This document shows, piece after piece, positions 27,802-36,762 of a DNA stretch of 64,000 bases. A model generated the notes under the pieces. It saw nothing but the letters and a program-made list of their open reading frames with translations, did not search any database and had not been told where the DNA came from. Position 1 is the first letter of the stretch. Every line of letters starts with the position of its first letter. Source of the DNA: Bacteroidota bacterium (lineage in GTDB: Bacteria > Bacteroidota > Bacteroidia > M30B66); assembly GCA_027483445.1 (NCBI GenBank), contig JAIXUS010000018.1:1-64000 (forward strand), in the 5' to 3' direction. Made by a program: the position numbers and the translations under genes.

Positions 27802-27940
27802 TTCCTGTTACATTCAATAATTCATTCTTACAACAGATATTAATCGTGTTCTACGCTGAGCTTAATTCTCTGTGAATTATCCACACTCCTGCAAGTCGAA
27901 ACAATCATTCCTTTAAATTCGCCCTCCTTATTCGTTTTTG

Positions 27941-30247
27941 ATGTTTCGATTGTTTATTGTCCTTCTCATTGGAATTGCATATTGCGCAGCACCTGCCAAG
28001 GCGCAGGTAAATACGTGTTTCGAGATACGTTCCATTTATGTGGATGCCTGCGGTTCGGGTCAGCAAGAAGGCCTGAATGAATTTGTGATCTTCGAAACAG
28101 GTCCAACACCCTTAAATGCCGCCGATTTACAGGCTACCTTTCCCAACAACCCATGGAGTGGGGTTTGTCAGAATTCTGCCTCTCAGGCGAAAGTAGCGGC
28201 CATCAACCAAACCATTACATCGTGTGGGATTTTTCTTGAACCTCCGGCCGGCATTATTCCTCCGTTCAGTATCGTTTACTTGTTTACCAGTATTTCATTC
28301 GACCCTACTACCTTCAGTTTCGCCGGTCTCAGCGAGCAGGTGTATGCCCTGTTTCATTGTGGAAATAATGCCTCAGGTAATTTTGCCAATTTTGGTACAG
28401 GCACAAGAACCTTGAGTTTGTCGTTTGTGAATCCAGCCAATTGCAGCGACCAAGCGACTTACGACCGGGCGTTGCTGGTTAATGAGACGGGGCAAAGTGC
28501 TGCCGGTAATGGGGCTCGCGTTGAGTTTAGCGACAATGGTGAAGCTACCTACGCCAATGTTGGCTGTGCAATTCCAGCCGGTTCGGGTGTTCCCTCTTCT
28601 AACTGGACAGTCCCGGCTCCGCTGTGTTCTAACGCCAATCCCATCAACCTAAATACACTGGTAACCGGAACTCCCGGCGGAACATGGTCTGGCGAGGGCG
28701 TCAACAACGGGTTTTTCAGTCCTGGGGGTCTGTCGGGACAAATTTCGATAACCTACACGGTGGGCCCCGCAGCATGCGAATCGTCGAGCGAACAAGCCAT
28801 TACTGTAAATGAAGCCGGAAATGCATCATGGGAAGCACCAGCATTACTGTGCAATCCTCAAAGTCTGATTGACTTAAACGCATGGGTAACCGGAACTCCG
28901 GGCGGCACATGGTCGGGGGCTGGAGTGAATGGAAGTACTTTTTCTGCGGCCGGCCTGAACGGAATCATTATCCTTACTTATTCGGTGGGCAGTGGGTTGT
29001 GTGAGGCAAGCCTTGAGCAGTCGTTTCCAATCCTCAGCGAAGTAGTATCGCCAACAGTGTCGGGCGAAACGGAGTTGTGCGAAGGCGAGAATTCCACATT
29101 CACAGCCGAAGTTTTACCAGATGCCGTTGTAACATGGTATTCCGATGCCGCCTTGACCCAGGTAGTTAACAGTGGAGCTACCTACAACCTAACCGGCCAA
29201 GAGTCGACGGTTCTCTACGTAACTCAAGGGTTTCCGGGTTGTGTAAGCGAGCCCTCTGCAGTGGAACTCACAGTTACCCCGATTCCGGCGGTTCCCATAA
29301 CCCTTTCGTCGGTTCCCTATTGTGAAGGTGAAGCCATTCCGCAGCTCACGGCTATCTCTTCACTTCCGGTGCTATGGTTTGATGATGCAGACTTAAACAA
29401 TGCCTTACAAGCCGGAGCCACCTTCACTCCAACTGAATCTGCCCTGCCCGATGTTTTTGTGGTTTCTGTGGCCGGCATCGATTGTTACAGCAATCCGGTT
29501 GAGGTTACGCTCAACGAACAGCCGGCTGCTCTGGCCGAAATTGTAAATACAGCGCCTTTGGAGACCTGCGATTTTGAGCCTTTGATTTTAGGGGCATCCG
29601 GAAATGGTACTTTTTCGTGGTCGACCGGCGAAAATACTGAGGCCATCACCATTACCCAGCCCGGAACCTACGTTCTCACTGCAACAGCCTGCAATGTAGC
29701 CACCGACACAATCACCTTCGTTTCGAATGCCTTAACGGCCAATTTTGAGCTGAGTGCCACCGAAGGCATCGCTCCACTCACGGTTACGGCGGTTTCATCG
29801 AGTGTGAATTCCGACAATTGCGTGTGGTTTCTAAACAGCGAAGAAGGCTTGGTAGATGACAATGTTCCATTTACTTTGACTGATGAAGGCCTTTACACCT
29901 TGCGCCTTGTTTGTTCGAACAACGAAGGGTGCAGTGCCGAATTTTTAAGAACCATTACTGTTACCTCAGGTGTTCTTTCGGTTGCGATTCCCAATTCTTT
30001 TACCCCTAACGGGGATGGCTTTAACGACAGCTTTAAGCCGATGTTAAAAGGAATTCAGGACCTTAGCTTTACCATTTTTAATCGTTGGGGAAATCAAGTG
30101 TTCACCTATACCGATCCTCAGGGTGTTTGGGATGGCTTTGTGAATGGGAACCCTTCTCCAGACGGGGTTTACTTTTATTTAATGAAGGGCCGTGATTTAA
30201 ATGGAAATGCAATAGAGAAGGCCGGAAGCATTACCGTAAAGCGGTAG
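27941..30247 (+). CDS. T9SS type B cargo protein with two tandem repeats
   Basis: 768 residues from ATG 27941 (a TTG directly before it is not needed). The signal peptide ends near APAKAQ. Residues ~20-210 form a cysteine-containing domain (IYVDACGSGQQEGLNEFVIF) that may be lamin-tail-like; I am not sure. Two near-identical modules follow, each with VTGTPGGTWSG and a GVN turn. Then come Ig-like modules with EGENSTFTAEV and CEGEAIPQLTA. The C-terminal sorting domain has VAIPNSFTPNGDGFND, FNRWGNQVF, DGVYFYLMKG and ITVKR. It is likely a surface or secreted adhesin-like protein; the ligand is unknown. It diverges from guaA. Confidence 0.9.
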   Translation: MFRLFIVLLIGIAYCAAPAKAQVNTCFEIRSIYVDACGSGQQEGLNEFVIFETGPTPLNAADLQATFPNNPWSGVCQNSASQAKVAAINQTITSCGIFLEPPAGIIPPFSIVYLFTSISFDPTTFSFAGLSEQVYALFHCGNNASGNFANFGTGTRTLSLSFVNPANCSDQATYDRALLVNETGQSAAGNGARVEFSDNGEATYANVGCAIPAGSGVPSSNWTVPAPLCSNANPINLNTLVTGTPGGTWSGEGVNNGFFSPGGLSGQISITYTVGPAACESSSEQAITVNEAGNASWEAPALLCNPQSLIDLNAWVTGTPGGTWSGAGVNGSTFSAAGLNGIIILTYSVGSGLCEASLEQSFPILSEVVSPTVSGETELCEGENSTFTAEVLPDAVVTWYSDAALTQVVNSGATYNLTGQESTVLYVTQGFPGCVSEPSAVELTVTPIPAVPITLSSVPYCEGEAIPQLTAISSLPVLWFDDADLNNALQAGATFTPTESALPDVFVVSVAGIDCYSNPVEVTLNEQPAALAEIVNTAPLETCDFEPLILGASGNGTFSWSTGENTEAITITQPGTYVLTATACNVATDTITFVSNALTANFELSATEGIAPLTVTAVSSSVNSDNCVWFLNSEEGLVDDNVPFTLTDEGLYTLRLVCSNNEGCSAEFLRTITVTSGVLSVAIPNSFTPNGDGFNDSFKPMLKGIQDLSFTIFNRWGNQVFTYTDPQGVWDGFVNGNPSPDGVYFYLMKGRDLNGNAIEKAGSITVKR

Positions 30248-30473: not shown

Positions 30474-31607
30474 ATGATTATTGAGCAATCTGTTTGGCAA
30501 AACGCCACTTGGCGCATACTAAAGCCCAAGGCGGAAATCCACCCACAACTCGTTTTTGTTTTTGGTAGTTCCGGCCAATTCAAGCAAGCCTTATTTCTTC
30601 CATCGTTGAAGGAACGTTATCCTAATGCACTGCTTGTTGGTTGCTCTACGTCGGGCGAAATCATCGACACTCAGGTTCTCGACGATTCTGTGGTGGCCAC
30701 GGCCGTTCAGCTGGAGCATTCTCATTTCACCTTCGTTTCAACAAAAGTGAATCATTCAAAAGACAGTGAGCAGGCCGCTTCAGAGCTTATTGCTAAACTA
30801 GAAACTAAAGGACTGAAGCACGTATTTGTACTTTCCGAAGGATTGCAGGTAAACGGTTCGCAGCTGGTTAAGGGAATGCGCAAGCAGTTGCCTCCGGGCG
30901 TTACCGTAACAGGAGGCTTAGCCGGCGATGGAGCTGATTTTCAATCGACTTACACTTTGTTGGGTGATGCCGGAATTCAGTCGCAGGCTGTATGCGCTAT
31001 TGGTTTTTATGGCGAGCGACTCGATATCTCCTACGGCTCTTTTGGAGGCTGGGACTCTTTCGGCATTGACCGTAAAGTAACCCGAAGCGAAAACAATGTA
31101 TTGTATGAAATTGATGGCCAGCCGGCATTGGAACTTTACAAGTCCTTTTTGGGAGAGCAGGCCGCGGGTTTACCGGCTTCAGGCCTGTTGTTTCCACTCA
31201 GTTTGCGCACCGCTGCTGATGAGCAGCCTGTTGTGAGAACAATACTTGCCGTAAATGAGCAAGACCAAAGCATCACCTTTGCTGGCGATTTGCCCGAAGG
31301 TTCATTTGTTCGTTTGATGAAGGCCAATACCGATAGGCTTATTCAGGGTGCTGTGAAGGCTTCGGAATTAATTCGAAAGCCTAACAATGTTCATCAGGGT
31401 TTGGCCATATTGATTAGCTGCGTAGGCCGTAAATTGGTGCTTAAGCAAATGGTTGAAGAGGAGGTAGAAGGTGTTCGGGAAACACTCGGAAACGGCTATG
31501 CGCTTACCGGATTCTATTCTTACGGAGAAATCTCTCCCTTTTCGGAGAATGCCTCCTGTGAGCTACACAATCAAACAATGACCATCACTTCAATTTGCGA
31601 ACTTTGA
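30474..31607 (+). CDS. FIST-domain sensor protein
   Basis: 377 residues, no signal peptide or membrane helix, so cytosolic. FIST_N spans about 20-215, with ALLVGCSTSGEI, VFVLSEGLQVNGSQLVKGM and VTGGLAGDGADF. FIST_C follows (about 225-365), with YEIDGQPALELYKSFLG and the closing ALTGFYSYGEISP block that is the family signature. FIST domains are proposed to sense small ligands such as amino acids. As a free-standing protein it has no output domain, but a PAS kinase gene starts 14 bp downstream, so it probably feeds that kinase. It is the first gene of a four-gene signalling locus. Confidence 0.9.
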   Translation: MIIEQSVWQNATWRILKPKAEIHPQLVFVFGSSGQFKQALFLPSLKERYPNALLVGCSTSGEIIDTQVLDDSVVATAVQLEHSHFTFVSTKVNHSKDSEQAASELIAKLETKGLKHVFVLSEGLQVNGSQLVKGMRKQLPPGVTVTGGLAGDGADFQSTYTLLGDAGIQSQAVCAIGFYGERLDISYGSFGGWDSFGIDRKVTRSENNVLYEIDGQPALELYKSFLGEQAAGLPASGLLFPLSLRTAADEQPVVRTILAVNEQDQSITFAGDLPEGSFVRLMKANTDRLIQGAVKASELIRKPNNVHQGLAILISCVGRKLVLKQMVEEEVEGVRETLGNGYALTGFYSYGEISPFSENASCELHNQTMTITSICEL

Positions 31608-31621
31608 TAACTGAGCTTTAC

Positions 31622-33703
31622 ATGCACCGTTTACTCAAACGACAAATTGCGAAATTCCTCCCGGAGGAAGTTCTGAATGATGACCGTTTTGCGGCCTTTC
31701 TTAAGGCTGTTGATGACGCTTACCTCGCCTATGAAAATGATTATGCGCAGGTTGAACGGACCTTAGAGCTTAGCTCGAACGAATTGTTCAAGTCGAACCA
31801 ACAGTTGAGTGCCATCAATCAATCGCTCGAAGTAAAAGTTTCTGAACGGACCACACAGCTAGAGCAGCGTAATGCTGAACTGCTTGATGCACAGAGAATT
31901 TCACGAATGGGTTCGTTTGAAATTGACTTTGTAAATGGATTTAGTCAGTTTACCGACCAAAGTGCCGAGCTCCTTGGCTTATCTAACGAGGAACTTAAGT
32001 TTGATGCTGATCTCATCCGGCGGTTACGCCGCAGAGTAATACGCGACGACATTCCGGCAATCGACCAACTTTGGGCTAAGTCTATGGCCAATAGGGAAGA
32101 TGTGAGCATGGATTTTCGGGTAAGAGACAATGAAGGTAACGTGGTGTATTTGCATTGGAAAGTAAAGAACGAATTCAATAGCAAGGGTAATTTATGCAGA
32201 CTTTCCGGCACATTGCAAGATGTAACTGAGCGAAAGCTGCTCGAAGAGAGAGCCCGTTTAGCCAGCGTAATAATCGAGAATAGTCCGACGATTTTGTTTC
32301 GCTGGAGGATTTCAGAAAGCTGGCCTGTTGAATATGTGTCTGGAAACGTGTCTCAGTTTGGCTTTAACATCGAGGATTTTCTTTCGGAGAAAATCAATTA
32401 TGCCGATATTATCTACAAAGATGACTTGGCAAGGGTTCTCGAGGAACTGAGTCAGTTTAGCGAATTGGGCCAAACCTCCTATGTGCAACGCTATCGGATT
32501 GTAACTGCGAATGGTGCTATTCGTTGGGTTGAAGACCGCACTACCGTTGAAAAAAACGTAGTAGGTGAAGCTACTCACCATCAAGGGCTTATAACCGATA
32601 TTACCGACACCATTAATGCTGAGCAGGCACTGCAAACCAGCGAAAAGCGTTTCCGCACCCTGGTGCACAATGCCTCCGATATTACTACTATTTTGGGTGG
32701 TGATGGCTCCATTGTTTACGAAAGTGCTTCGTTTTACAGGCAGTTTGGCTACACGCCGGAGGAGGTAATCGGTAAGAATGTTTTTCAATTTTTACATCCA
32801 GACGATCTCGAGCCTGTTCAGGCGGCGTTTATAGAAGTATTGAATGGGCGCGAAGATATGCCTATCGTGTTTCGGTTTAAGTCGGCCGACAATCGATGGA
32901 TTTACCTCGAAGCCATTGGTAATAACCAACTCAACGAGCCGGCCATCCAGGGAATTGTGGTTAACTCACGCGATGTTTCAGAGCGGGTGGAGCATCAAAC
33001 GGCTTTGCAGGACTATGCTGCGAACCTCGAGAAAATCAACAAGGAGTTAGACCAATTCGCTTACATTGTTTCGCACGACTTAAAGGCTCCGCTTAGGGCC
33101 ATCAATAATCTATCTCAGTGGATTGAGGAAGATTTGGAAGGCAAGCTTGAGGGCGATACTCAACGAAATTTTGAATTACTCCGTGGGCGCATTCACCGCA
33201 TGGAAGCCCTTATTAACGGAATTCTTCAATATTCTCGTGCCGGAAGGGTGAAAAGTGAGAATGTAACCATTGATGTGCAGTCTTTTGTGAAGGATATTAT
33301 TTCGAATCTGGCACCTCCGGCGCACTTTAATGTTGAAATTGATCCAAACTTGCCTGTTATCCAGGCCGAAAAGATTGCTTTAGATCAAGTCTTTTCGAAT
33401 TTCATCAGCAATGCCATCAAATACAACAATAACCCTAAACCTGAGATTCAGGTTACCGGAAAAGATTTGGGGAAAGAGTATCAGTTTGGCATTGTAGACA
33501 ATGGCCCGGGAATTCCACCGGAGTTTCATGAAAAGGTATTCATGATTTTTCAAACCTTGCAAGCCCGCGATACGGTAGAAAGCACTGGAGTAGGCTTGGC
33601 CATTGTGAAGAAGATCGTCGAAGAAAAAGGCGGCAGGGTTTGGATTGAAAGTGAAGCTGGAAAAGGTTCTGCCTTCTACTTCACGCTGCCAAAAGAAGCA
33701 TAA
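31622..33703 (+). CDS. Soluble histidine kinase with coiled coil and three PAS domains
   Basis: 693 residues from ATG 31622 (the TTG at 31595 overlaps the FIST gene). The N-terminal ~90 residues are helical and coiled-coil; this segment, with FLKAVDDAYLAYENDY, looks like one I associate with kinases encoded beside FIST genes. PAS domains lie at about 95-205, 213-335 and 340-460. The phosphoacceptor histidine (about 485) is in IVSHDLKAPLRAINN. The ATPase domain has FSNFISNAIKYNN (N box), VDNGPGIP and TGVGLAIVKKIVEEKGG. It has no membrane segment and no receiver. The Rcp1-like receiver 30 bp downstream is the obvious phosphate acceptor, as with phytochrome-type kinases. Confidence 0.93.
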   Translation: MHRLLKRQIAKFLPEEVLNDDRFAAFLKAVDDAYLAYENDYAQVERTLELSSNELFKSNQQLSAINQSLEVKVSERTTQLEQRNAELLDAQRISRMGSFEIDFVNGFSQFTDQSAELLGLSNEELKFDADLIRRLRRRVIRDDIPAIDQLWAKSMANREDVSMDFRVRDNEGNVVYLHWKVKNEFNSKGNLCRLSGTLQDVTERKLLEERARLASVIIENSPTILFRWRISESWPVEYVSGNVSQFGFNIEDFLSEKINYADIIYKDDLARVLEELSQFSELGQTSYVQRYRIVTANGAIRWVEDRTTVEKNVVGEATHHQGLITDITDTINAEQALQTSEKRFRTLVHNASDITTILGGDGSIVYESASFYRQFGYTPEEVIGKNVFQFLHPDDLEPVQAAFIEVLNGREDMPIVFRFKSADNRWIYLEAIGNNQLNEPAIQGIVVNSRDVSERVEHQTALQDYAANLEKINKELDQFAYIVSHDLKAPLRAINNLSQWIEEDLEGKLEGDTQRNFELLRGRIHRMEALINGILQYSRAGRVKSENVTIDVQSFVKDIISNLAPPAHFNVEIDPNLPVIQAEKIALDQVFSNFISNAIKYNNNPKPEIQVTGKDLGKEYQFGIVDNGPGIPPEFHEKVFMIFQTLQARDTVESTGVGLAIVKKIVEEKGGRVWIESEAGKGSAFYFTLPKEA

Positions 33704-33733
33704 CCAACAACACACACATAAATTCTAACCAAC

Positions 33734-34162
33734 ATGAGCGAGAAAACCATTAACATCTTATTGGTCGAAGACGATGAAGTGGATGTGATGAATGTAAAAC
33801 GGGCATTTCAGAAAAATAACCTCAGCAATCCGATTTTTCATGCCGGTAATGGCATTGAAGCCTTGGCATTGTTGCGTGGTGAAACCGAAAAGGGGCCAAT
33901 TCCTCTTCCTCGAATCATTCTCCTCGATTTGAACATGCCTCGCATGGGTGGCATTGAATTTCTGCACGAGCTGCGCAGAGATCCGGCGCTGAAGAATTTG
34001 AGCGTATTTGTAATGACTACCTCCAATGAAGATAAGGACAAGGTAGACGCTTACAACCTAAACGTTGCCGGATACATCCTGAAACCGCTCTCTATGGAGA
34101 ATTTTGTTAGTGCAGTTTCTATCCTGAAAAACTACTGGACACTATGTGAGTATCCGGAGTAA
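33734..34162 (+). CDS. Single-domain response regulator, Rcp1-like
   Basis: 142 residues, a lone receiver domain. Acidic pocket EDDE at 12-15, phospho-acceptor D65 in LLDLNMPRMGG, the conserved threonine in FVMTTSNE, and lysine in GYILKPLS. The extra residues after beta-3 (GETEKGPIPLPR) and the tail NYWTLCE are typical of the Rcp1 type that partners phytochrome and other soluble kinases. With no output domain, it may relay phosphate or act by protein contact. It sits between two kinase genes, so it may join them in one relay. Confidence 0.93.
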   Translation: MSEKTINILLVEDDEVDVMNVKRAFQKNNLSNPIFHAGNGIEALALLRGETEKGPIPLPRIILLDLNMPRMGGIEFLHELRRDPALKNLSVFVMTTSNEDKDKVDAYNLNVAGYILKPLSMENFVSAVSILKNYWTLCEYPE

Positions 34163-34219
34163 TTTGTTGAAACTCTACTTGCAAACTGCCGTAAAGGCAC
34201 ACACTCACAAACCATCACT

Positions 34220-34235
34220 CCGCCTGTTTAGGCGG
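34220..34235 (+). promoter_or_regulatory. Hairpin directly before the hybrid kinase start codon
   Basis: CCGCC-TGTTTA-GGCGG, followed by four A's and then the ATG at 34240. It lacks a T run on either strand, so it is not a terminator. In the message it could set translation rate or mark a processing site. Confidence 0.4.
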
Positions 34236-34239
34236 AAAA

Positions 34240-36237
34240 ATGAGAACCATGCTACAAAACAATACAATCCGAATACTGCTGGTCGATGATGATGAAATCG
34301 ATGCCATGTCATTTGAACGGGCATTGAAGAAATCCGGAATCGATGCCCTCCTTTCCCTGGCCATTCATGCCGATGACGCTATGGTGAAAATCCAGTCGAT
34401 GGAATACGATTGTATTTTTCTCGACTATCAATTGCCAGGTACCGACGGGCTTGCATTGCTAAAGCGGTTCAAGGAAATGAAGATTACCTCGCCAATCGCG
34501 GTGATGACTTCGCAAGGTGACGAGAAAATCGCCGTGGAAATGATGAAAGCCGGAGCGTTTGATTATTTCCCCAAAGCTGAGGTGAACCCCGAAAACATTA
34601 ACCGCATTGTTAGAGCGGGTATGCGATTAAGGGAAATGGAGCTTCAGAAAGCCTTTGCAGAAAAAGCGCTTAAAGAAAACAACCTTAAGCTGAGCGCCAT
34701 TCTCGAAAGTACCAATGCACTCATCTTTTCTGTCGATCAGCAGTTGAACTATTCGGCATTCAACACCGCGTTTAAACTGGCCATCCAGCAAATTTATGGT
34801 ACCGAGCCTTGCCTCGGAAGGCCAGCCGCTGAAAACTTCCTTTACGAAGTCGACAGGGCAAGAATTACTGCCGCTTTTGAACGCGCCCTCTCGGGTGAAC
34901 AAGATGTTCAGCTTCTTGAAGAATTTGGCGAAGACGAAGATCGCCGAACTTATTACGATTTCCTGATGAATCCCATTCAAGGTGCCAATGGAAAAGTAAA
35001 TGGAGTTGCCGTTTATGGTCAGGATGTTACAAAACGCAAGAAAGACGAATGGACCATCTGGCAATCAAAAATTGAAGCTGAACGCACTGCCAAGGCAAAG
35101 TCGGAGTTCCTTTCTAACATGAGCCATGAGATTCGAACGCCCATGAATGCGATTATCGGACTTTCGGAGCTTTTGCTCAAAGAAAGTCTGAACGACAAAC
35201 AACTGGAAAATGTAAGGTCGATTAAGTATTCGGCCGACAATCTTCTCGTTATCATAAACGATATTCTCGATTTTTCGAAAATAGAATCGGGGAAAATGGA
35301 GTTCGAAAACATCAACTTCGACCTTCAGCTGAAAGTTCAGGAAATACGCAAAACCTTTGTCTTTAAAGCAGAGGAGAAAGGCATCGGACTCAAATTCAGA
35401 GTCGACGACCGAATCCCTCAATTTGTTATTGGAGATCCATTCCGGCTAAATCAGATTCTTCTCAATCTACTTAGCAATGCTATCAAATTTACCAAAGAAG
35501 GCACCGTAAGCCTTAACATAAACCTCTTATCTGACAATGGAGACGATATACTCTTGGAGTTCAATGTTTCCGATACCGGAATTGGTATCCCCAAAGAAAA
35601 ACTAGCCAGCGTTTTTGAATCATACACGCAAGCCTATACCGATATCACACGTCGTTTTGGTGGAACAGGCCTTGGTCTTGCCATCACACGGCAGTTGGTT
35701 ACCATGCAAAATGGCGAGATTTCGCTCGACTCTGAAGTTGGAAAAGGAACAACCTTTACTGTTCGATTGCCCTTAAAGAAAGGGGTTATTGAAGAGGCAC
35801 AAACCGCCGACGAAATGATTGCCGAGCTGCTGGAGAAACGCGACTTCGAAGGAATGCCGGTACTTTTGGTTGAAGACAACCCCATGAACCAGTTCGTGGC
35901 GAATCAGGTGCTTGAACTGTGGAACATCAAGGTCGATTTTGCCGAAGATGGATTGAAGGCAGTTAAGTTGCTCCAGGAAAACGATTATGCCTTGGTGCTC
36001 ATGGATCTCCAAATGCCGGTAATGAGCGGCTATGAAGCAACCGAGTTTATCCGCGACCGAACCAATAAGGTGCGTAATCCCGACATTCCCATCATTGCCC
36101 TTACCGCCGATGCTTTCCCCGAAACGAAGAAAAAAGTACTGGAATCTGGCATGAACGACTTTGTGACCAAGCCGCTCGAGCAAAACGATCTTTATCAGAA
36201 AATTAAGTTGCATGCGCTGCGGACCGTGAAAGTCTGA
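34240..36237 (+). CDS. Hybrid histidine kinase: REC-PAS-HisKA-HATPase-REC
   Basis: 665 residues, soluble. The N-terminal receiver (8-125) has D62 in FLDYQLPGTDG. A PAS-like domain follows (about 140-265), then a helix to HisKA with H296 in FLSNMSHEIRTPMNA. The ATPase domain has LLNLLSNAIKFT, VSDTGIGIP and GGTGLGLAI. The C-terminal receiver has D589 in LVLMDLQMPVMSG, with a TADAF switch region and TKPL. The layout suggests input by phosphorylation of the first receiver and output through the second. No Hpt or DNA-binding output protein is in the locus, so the final target lies elsewhere. A strong terminator follows. Confidence 0.93.
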   Translation: MRTMLQNNTIRILLVDDDEIDAMSFERALKKSGIDALLSLAIHADDAMVKIQSMEYDCIFLDYQLPGTDGLALLKRFKEMKITSPIAVMTSQGDEKIAVEMMKAGAFDYFPKAEVNPENINRIVRAGMRLREMELQKAFAEKALKENNLKLSAILESTNALIFSVDQQLNYSAFNTAFKLAIQQIYGTEPCLGRPAAENFLYEVDRARITAAFERALSGEQDVQLLEEFGEDEDRRTYYDFLMNPIQGANGKVNGVAVYGQDVTKRKKDEWTIWQSKIEAERTAKAKSEFLSNMSHEIRTPMNAIIGLSELLLKESLNDKQLENVRSIKYSADNLLVIINDILDFSKIESGKMEFENINFDLQLKVQEIRKTFVFKAEEKGIGLKFRVDDRIPQFVIGDPFRLNQILLNLLSNAIKFTKEGTVSLNINLLSDNGDDILLEFNVSDTGIGIPKEKLASVFESYTQAYTDITRRFGGTGLGLAITRQLVTMQNGEISLDSEVGKGTTFTVRLPLKKGVIEEAQTADEMIAELLEKRDFEGMPVLLVEDNPMNQFVANQVLELWNIKVDFAEDGLKAVKLLQENDYALVLMDLQMPVMSGYEATEFIRDRTNKVRNPDIPIIALTADAFPETKKKVLESGMNDFVTKPLEQNDLYQKIKLHALRTVKV

Positions 36238-36256: not shown

Positions 36257-36291
36257 GCCCGGTGAAAACGCTATCTTCACCGGGCTTTTTT
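36257..36291 (+). terminator. Strong intrinsic terminator of the signalling operon
   Basis: GCCCGGTGAA (36257-36266) pairs perfectly with TTCACCGGGC (36276-36285) around a 9-nt loop, then TTTTTT to 36291. The ATG of the next gene follows with no gap. Confidence 0.92.
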
Positions 36292-36762
36292 ATGCCTGTA
36301 AATCTACGTCCGCTATTGCCTTCCGATTGGCCTTTACTCAAAGCCATCGAGTTGGATGAAGAAAGCAAACGCTTTGGCGATGATCAGGCCTTTACGGAGG
36401 AAGAGCTGTATGCCTTTCTCGTGTCGGAACACAACCTGAAGAAACACGAACAATTTCGATGGGTAATTTGTAGGCCCGGTGAGTCTACCGGACTTGGGTT
36501 TATTGATGTATTTGAAGCAGATTTTGAGCAGCGGTCGGCTTGGATTGGCATTCTTCTCTTGCCCGCTGCACGTCGGATGGGCATCGGTTCGGCGGCCTTA
36601 AAATCCCTTTCCCAACAATTGCCCGAGCTGGGAATTGATACCTTGTTTGCCGAAGTGCAGCCCGACAATGCGGCATCTGTGGCATTTTTTCAAAAGAACG
36701 GCTTTCAGAAACATGCGACCAAAGGGGAAAATTGGGTTTTTATCCAAACCTGCTTTCCCTAA
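36292..36762 (+). CDS. GNAT-family N-acetyltransferase
   Basis: 156 residues from ATG 36292. The frame is open back to a TTG at 36241, but that would code through the terminator. The acetyl-CoA loop is RRMGIGSAALKSL, preceded by the strand AWIGILLLPA and followed by AEVQPDNAASVAFFQKNGFQKH, as in RimJ/RimL-like enzymes. The substrate (amine, antibiotic, polyamine or protein N terminus) cannot be told. Its start codon directly follows the terminator's T run, so the message must begin inside the terminator hairpin or the hybrid kinase gene, or arise by readthrough. Confidence 0.85.
   Translation: MPVNLRPLLPSDWPLLKAIELDEESKRFGDDQAFTEEELYAFLVSEHNLKKHEQFRWVICRPGESTGLGFIDVFEADFEQRSAWIGILLLPAARRMGIGSAALKSLSQQLPELGIDTLFAEVQPDNAASVAFFQKNGFQKHATKGENWVFIQTCFP

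Follow-up and report, generated by a model that had tools for sequence, protein, structure and literature searches.

The most interesting part of this analysis is FNT, a previously uncurated module that links FIST sensors to many outputs. In the 64,000-nucleotide stretch of DNA that was analyzed (the window), FNT opens the first of two kinases encoded in a four-gene operon with the order FIST, HK1, Rcp and HHK. The chances are about even that FNT is a dedicated FIST-docking module, that the FIST subfamily linked to it is an interchangeable sensor acting in trans on kinases, SpoIIE phosphatases and c-di-GMP enzymes across many phyla, and that the version in the window drives a kinase that acts on a receiver-controlled kinase, with HPt and output provided in trans. 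If the link between FNT and FIST is one of physical docking, FNT would predict with which partners hundreds of orphan FIST proteins signal, and would show how the wiring of a single sensor is changed to serve kinase, phosphatase or c-di-GMP outputs. The novelty of the operon lies in a FIST-FNT kinase that would feed a REC-controlled hybrid kinase, together with an Rcp branch; the underlying principles are already established.

FNT and its association with FIST

A FIST-FNT system is defined here as a FIST gene followed directly by a gene that begins with FNT. This is the arrangement found in the window, where FNT starts 14 nt past the FIST stop codon (Table 1). Among 297 genomes of the phylum, 37 copies of FNT were found, 34 of which follow a FIST gene at a distance of no more than about 65 bp. 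The FIST-associated helical N terminus proposed by the earlier reading of the sequence alone is real and tightly linked to FIST. Seen from the other side, 37 FIST genes in these genomes have a score better than 1e-100, and FNT stands directly behind 34 of them, while none of the weaker FIST genes (about 1e-61 and below) has an adjoining FNT. The exceptions are three FNT kinases without a FIST neighbor (L258 6586-8739, L259 6806-8623 and L260 1762-4056) and three FIST genes of the FNT-linked subfamily without an FNT gene. In a second set of loci, spanning Bacteroidota, proteobacteria, cyanobacteria, Planctomycetota and others, FNT is directly behind FIST in 68 of 76 cases, this set having been collected with the FIST profile and being, therefore, not an unbiased sample.

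The model of FNT (pLDDT 94.4) has helices at residues 3-12, 15-18 and 21-66, and the alignment contains an invariant L-L-x-R-Q motif. There is no FNT family in Pfam or NCBIfam, and searches of the PDB by sequence and by fold gave no credible relative. The proteins that carry FNT comprise HisKA and HisKA_2 kinases, hybrid kinases with or without HPt, SpoIIE phosphatases, and GGDEF-EAL and GGDEF-HD proteins. FNT is inferred to be where the FIST signal arrives, as a putative docking or signal helix. In five loci (L027, L028, L029, L094 and L108) FIST is followed by an FNT-SpoIIE phosphatase, which suggests that FIST governs a partner-switching (anti-sigma) pathway.

The FIST protein of the window is the only one encoded in its genome (4.26 Mb in 87 contigs). 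It belongs clearly to the FIST domain proteins (PF08495/PF10442), with 165.4 bits for FIST_N (cut-off 23.2; Pfam FIST E-value 1.7e-48) and 130.2 bits for FIST_C (cut-off 28.5; E-value 6.9e-38), and Pfam finds no output domain in its 377 residues. The AlphaFold model (pLDDT 89.4) matches the fold of the FIST structures of FBXO22 (E 8e-11). Structures of chorismatase and of cyanuric acid hydrolase match weakly (E about 1e-5, TM about 0.39), which hints at a small-molecule pocket. This likeness also raises the question of an enzymatic ancestry for FIST.

Judged by its sequence, the protein is a member of the FNT-linked FIST subfamily, distinct from the NosP equivalog. Membership in the latter (NCBIfam NF041558) was rejected given that the score is 73.8 bits versus a cut-off of 450, and that the kinases adjoining the best NosP-like genes (371-413 bits) lack FNT and have only a short N terminus. 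In other genomes of the phylum (L247, L248, L249 and L250), two to four FIST genes stand in tandem, with a short FNT-less HisKA kinase and then large kinases behind them; these arrays are a distinct branch of FIST with an architecture of their own.

Organization of the operon

The four open reading frames were confirmed at 30474-36237 of the window, all on the forward strand and separated by gaps of 14, 30 and 77 nt, a spacing from which co-transcription may be expected. HK1 has the architecture FNT-PAS3-HK and HHK that of REC-PAS-HK-REC, so that the soluble, FIST-headed, operon-like set with two kinases that the sequence-only reading had recognized is borne out, and with it a second kinase that has intact receivers at both ends.

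Table 1. Position of the features of the operon in the window
Feature	Coordinates	Strand	Details and evidence
Stand-alone FIST sensor (FIST_N + FIST_C, 377 aa)	30474..31607	+	Pfam, alignment, AlphaFold model
HK1, soluble histidine kinase FNT-PAS-PAS-PAS-HisKA-HATPase	31622..33703	+	Pfam, comparison with relatives
FNT, 67-aa all-helical N terminus of HK1	31622..31822	+	Alignment, FIST linkage, model
HK1 HisKA	33047..33241	+	Phosphoacceptor His codon 33074-33076
HK1 HATPase_c	33374..33697	+	N, G1 and G2 boxes intact
Rcp, Rcp1-like single-domain receiver (142 aa)	33734..34162	+	Phosphoacceptor Asp codon 33926-33928
HHK, hybrid histidine kinase REC1-PAS-HisKA-HATPase-REC2 (665 aa), no HPt	34240..36237	+	Pfam
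HHK REC1	34255..34623	+	Phosphoacceptor Asp codon 34423-34425
HHK kinase core (HisKA + HATPase_c)	35095..35778	+	His codon 35125-35127, H+4 Thr
HHK REC2, terminal receiver	35860..36207	+	Phosphoacceptor Asp codon 36004-36006
Intrinsic terminator closing the operon	36257..36292	+	10-bp stem, 9-nt loop, U tract

The longest reading frame of HK1 begins at a TTG at 31595 and overlaps FIST, and the start is probably the ATG at 31622, because this is where the start of its relatives matches. Besides the HisKA and HATPase_c domains, Pfam finds three PAS_3 stretches in HK1 and no periplasmic domain. The three PAS domains noted previously are thus present, but their number does not define the protein: the input domains of the orthologs range from FNT-PAS up to FNT-GAF-PAS3 (one to three PAS, with or without GAF), while FNT and the kinase core are constant.

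Rcp contains a Response_reg domain (1.5e-19) and, according to Pfam, no second domain. Its best PDB matches include RcpB (1.6e-21), RcpA (2.8e-20) and RCP1 (9.8e-20), which agrees with the Rcp1-like character that it had been assigned, and bacteriophytochrome response regulators are also among them. HHK has the HisKA, HATPase_c and C-terminal REC of a hybrid kinase, with intact catalytic residues. Its REC1 retains D62, T90 and K112 in all 13 sets compared, as an N-terminal phosphorylatable receiver of the LvrB type.

The hairpin at 36257-36285 with its U tract has a stability of -20.5 kcal/mol (z -4.7), which was equaled by none of 200 shuffles, in line with the strong terminator that had been proposed to end the operon. 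It was overlooked by the pattern scanner because of its 9-nt loop; the terminator scan of the window gave output at chance level, and the promoter scan of the window gave no match above that level. The likely ATG of a GNAT gene, at 36292, sits right on the tail of the terminator and, therefore, GNAT would be expressed by read-through or from another start. The upstream gene (27938-30247) encodes a CHU_C (type IX secretion) Ig-domain surface protein, which is syntenic across the family and varies in length, relatives having between about 767 and 1085 aa.

Conservation of the operon

The order FIST-HK1-Rcp-HHK recurs in five loci of the same family (L021, L022, L023, L024 and L026), and in a sixth (L033) the operon is interrupted by the end of the contig. 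In a separate collection, the same order was found in five Dyadobacter genomes (L056, L057, L064, L075 and L078). The proposal had been made to depend on co-conservation of the four genes, and these two groups of genomes uphold it. Identity between the window and Dyadobacter is 54-55% for FIST, 39-45% for HK1, 71-73% for Rcp and 38-39% for HHK. The operon is also present in the named strain Dyadobacter crusticola DSM 16708, where it offers a compact model of one kinase controlling another, and through it the ligand of non-NosP FIST domains becomes open to testing. Its distribution is patchy, given that a 100% complete member of the family (G008) does not have it.

The kinase boxes and phosphoacceptors are intact in 13 of 13 sets, that is, 12 four-gene operons and the output-bearing cousin L034. 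Versus the closest relative (L021), dN/dS is 0.058 for FIST, 0.026 for HK1, 0.005 for Rcp and 0.023 for HHK, and by identity, too, Rcp is more conserved than the other three proteins (65-100%). Over the 13 sets, divergence is correlated between Rcp and HHK (r=0.97) and between HK1 and HHK (r=0.87), values that are inflated by shared phylogeny.

The search for an output

A hybrid kinase whose chain ends in its C-terminal receiver is an ordinary hybrid kinase awaiting an HPt. Pfam finds no HPt in the operon of the window, and no dedicated HPt or output lies within or beside the operon in its own family or in Dyadobacter. GNAT and multiheme cytochrome genes stand behind the operon in the family (L022, L024 and L026). 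They were rejected as outputs since the Dyadobacter operons are not followed by these genes and their adjacency reflects general synteny, guaA and CHU_C on the other side of the operon being likewise syntenic in the family.

The cousin L034 contains FIST, a short first kinase without an FNT match at the threshold used, Rcp, and an HHK with a fused C-terminal HPt, followed by a sigma-54 regulator. The receiver tree separates Rcp, REC1 and REC2 into three groups that run through all the operons compared, and the receivers of L034 join their positional counterparts; the REC1 group is split off with a support of 0.96, the placement of the L034 REC1 being weak internally. Further FIST-FNT cousins have NtrC regulators with HPt-bearing hybrid kinases (L030, L272-L274, L277 and L279) or HPt with LytTR regulators (L270, L271 and, by architecture, L281). 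The claim that the set is a complete relay is thus not supported, and its end point need not be new.

The genome of the window has one HPt domain, in a stand-alone protein of 118 aa (G000:C9:175013-175252; L122 7984-8340) that adjoins a ClC channel gene. It has orthologs throughout the family, with the AHKIKPS motif intact, and is kept in G008, and it is thus not dedicated to the FIST operon. The genome has about two other hybrid kinases, and this HPt is perhaps a hub that these few kinases share. No conserved output gene lies beside the stand-alone HPt genes of the family. Dyadobacter genomes contain five or six HPt domains each, so that no unique partner stands out there; one has an OmpR-type regulator and a hybrid kinase as neighbors, and others adjoin unrelated genes. 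LuxO is a sigma-54-type regulator, and luxU is encoded elsewhere. Given the HPt domains and regulators of L034 and the other cousins, and the single stand-alone HPt of the genome itself, the missing output would most simply be an HPt and a regulator in trans, by analogy with VpsS, LuxU and LuxO (PMC4398556).

Proposed mechanism and alternatives

About half of our confidence is placed in a chain running from FIST through HK1, Rcp and/or REC1, HHK, REC2 and an HPt in trans to a regulator, in which the ligand, the contact between FIST and FNT, the hand-off to HPt and the direction of each phosphotransfer are all predicted. Cytosolic FIST would bind a ligand and act in trans on HK1 through the helical FNT, setting its autophosphorylation. 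HK1 would then phosphorylate Rcp, and probably REC1 of HHK too. The sequences of a locus without FIST (L287), where a core of HK1 type (49% identity over the core) lies beside an Rcp homolog (51%), point to HK1 and Rcp as a cognate pair. Phosphorylated REC1 would switch HHK, as in a REC-controlled kinase like LvrB, and HHK would autophosphorylate and pass the phosphate to its own REC2, from which it may reach the single stand-alone HPt of the genome and a response regulator. Rcp would be a branch, serving as phosphate sink or buffer, or acting by protein contact.

The presence of three receivers makes the wiring ambiguous, and it is conceivable, if rather unlikely, that Rcp is the end point, acting through protein contact, and that HHK drains HK1 and Rcp as a regulator or phosphatase (a kinase switch or phosphate sink) instead of feeding an HPt relay. 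Threonine or asparagine at position H+4 of histidine kinases is associated with phosphatase activity (PMC12570481). HK1 has alanine there in 13 of 13 sets and HHK keeps threonine in all 13, which fits this alternative, as do the strong conservation of Rcp and the lack of a dedicated HPt or output in either lineage. Nonetheless, HHK has all the kinase boxes and REC2, and its homologs have a fused HPt, which favors the forward relay.

The genes can also be found apart. The FIST-less locus L286 (9659-15932) encodes a PAS kinase, a second kinase, an Rcp that is 63% identical to that of the window, another small receiver and an HHK with HPt, and the pair in L287 has no HHK. This would agree with two independent systems, FIST-HK1-Rcp and a separate HHK, kept in one operon by chance or by shared regulation, which is improbable given that two lineages far apart, and L034 as well, have the same four-gene order, and that the divergence of the proteins is correlated, even if inflated as stated. 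That the operon is a NosP-type nitric-oxide/heme sensor is very improbable: FIST acts in trans with a partner kinase in NosP/NosK as well (PMC12570481), but both the equivalog score and the FNT-less kinases of the NosP-like genes speak against it.

Comparison with known systems

No description of the arrangement of the operon or of FNT was found in the open-license literature. The claim that the system is undescribed holds for these two features and does not extend to FIST acting on a partner kinase, which is known from NosP/NosK and VpsV/VpsS. NosP controls the autophosphorylation of NosK (PMC12570481), and the NosP-NosK-NosR and NosP-NahK-NarR systems share with the window a stand-alone FIST and a soluble kinase as operon partner, whose autophosphorylation is modulated in those systems (PMC12570481, PMC8846402). 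Unlike these systems, which have a c-di-GMP regulator, the window has a FIST of another subfamily, a partner kinase that carries FNT, an additional Rcp and, as second kinase, a hybrid one that has a receiver at its N terminus, and no c-di-GMP output gene. In Vibrio cholerae, the FIST protein VpsV is encoded upstream of the soluble hybrid kinase VpsS, which signals via the HPt LuxU to LuxO (PMC4398556). This system has only one kinase, without an N-terminal receiver, and no Rcp.

The control of one kinase by another has a precedent in Leptospira, where LvrA phosphorylates the N-terminal REC of LvrB and activates this second kinase (PMC13269768). The window likewise encodes a first kinase and a second one with an N-terminal REC. 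In contrast to HHK, LvrB (REC-DHp-CA) lacks both a PAS domain and a C-terminal receiver; there is no FIST, and the output is LvrC, an anti-sigma factor. As in Cph1-Rcp1 and with the bacteriophytochrome response regulators, a receiver of Rcp1 type lies beside a HisKA kinase, but in the window the kinase input is FNT and PAS in place of a phytochrome, and a hybrid kinase follows. An output-bearing arrangement of the same class is that of L034, with the same four genes in the same order and receivers that group by position; L034 differs from the window in the HPt fused to its HHK, its adjoining NtrC-type output and its first kinase.
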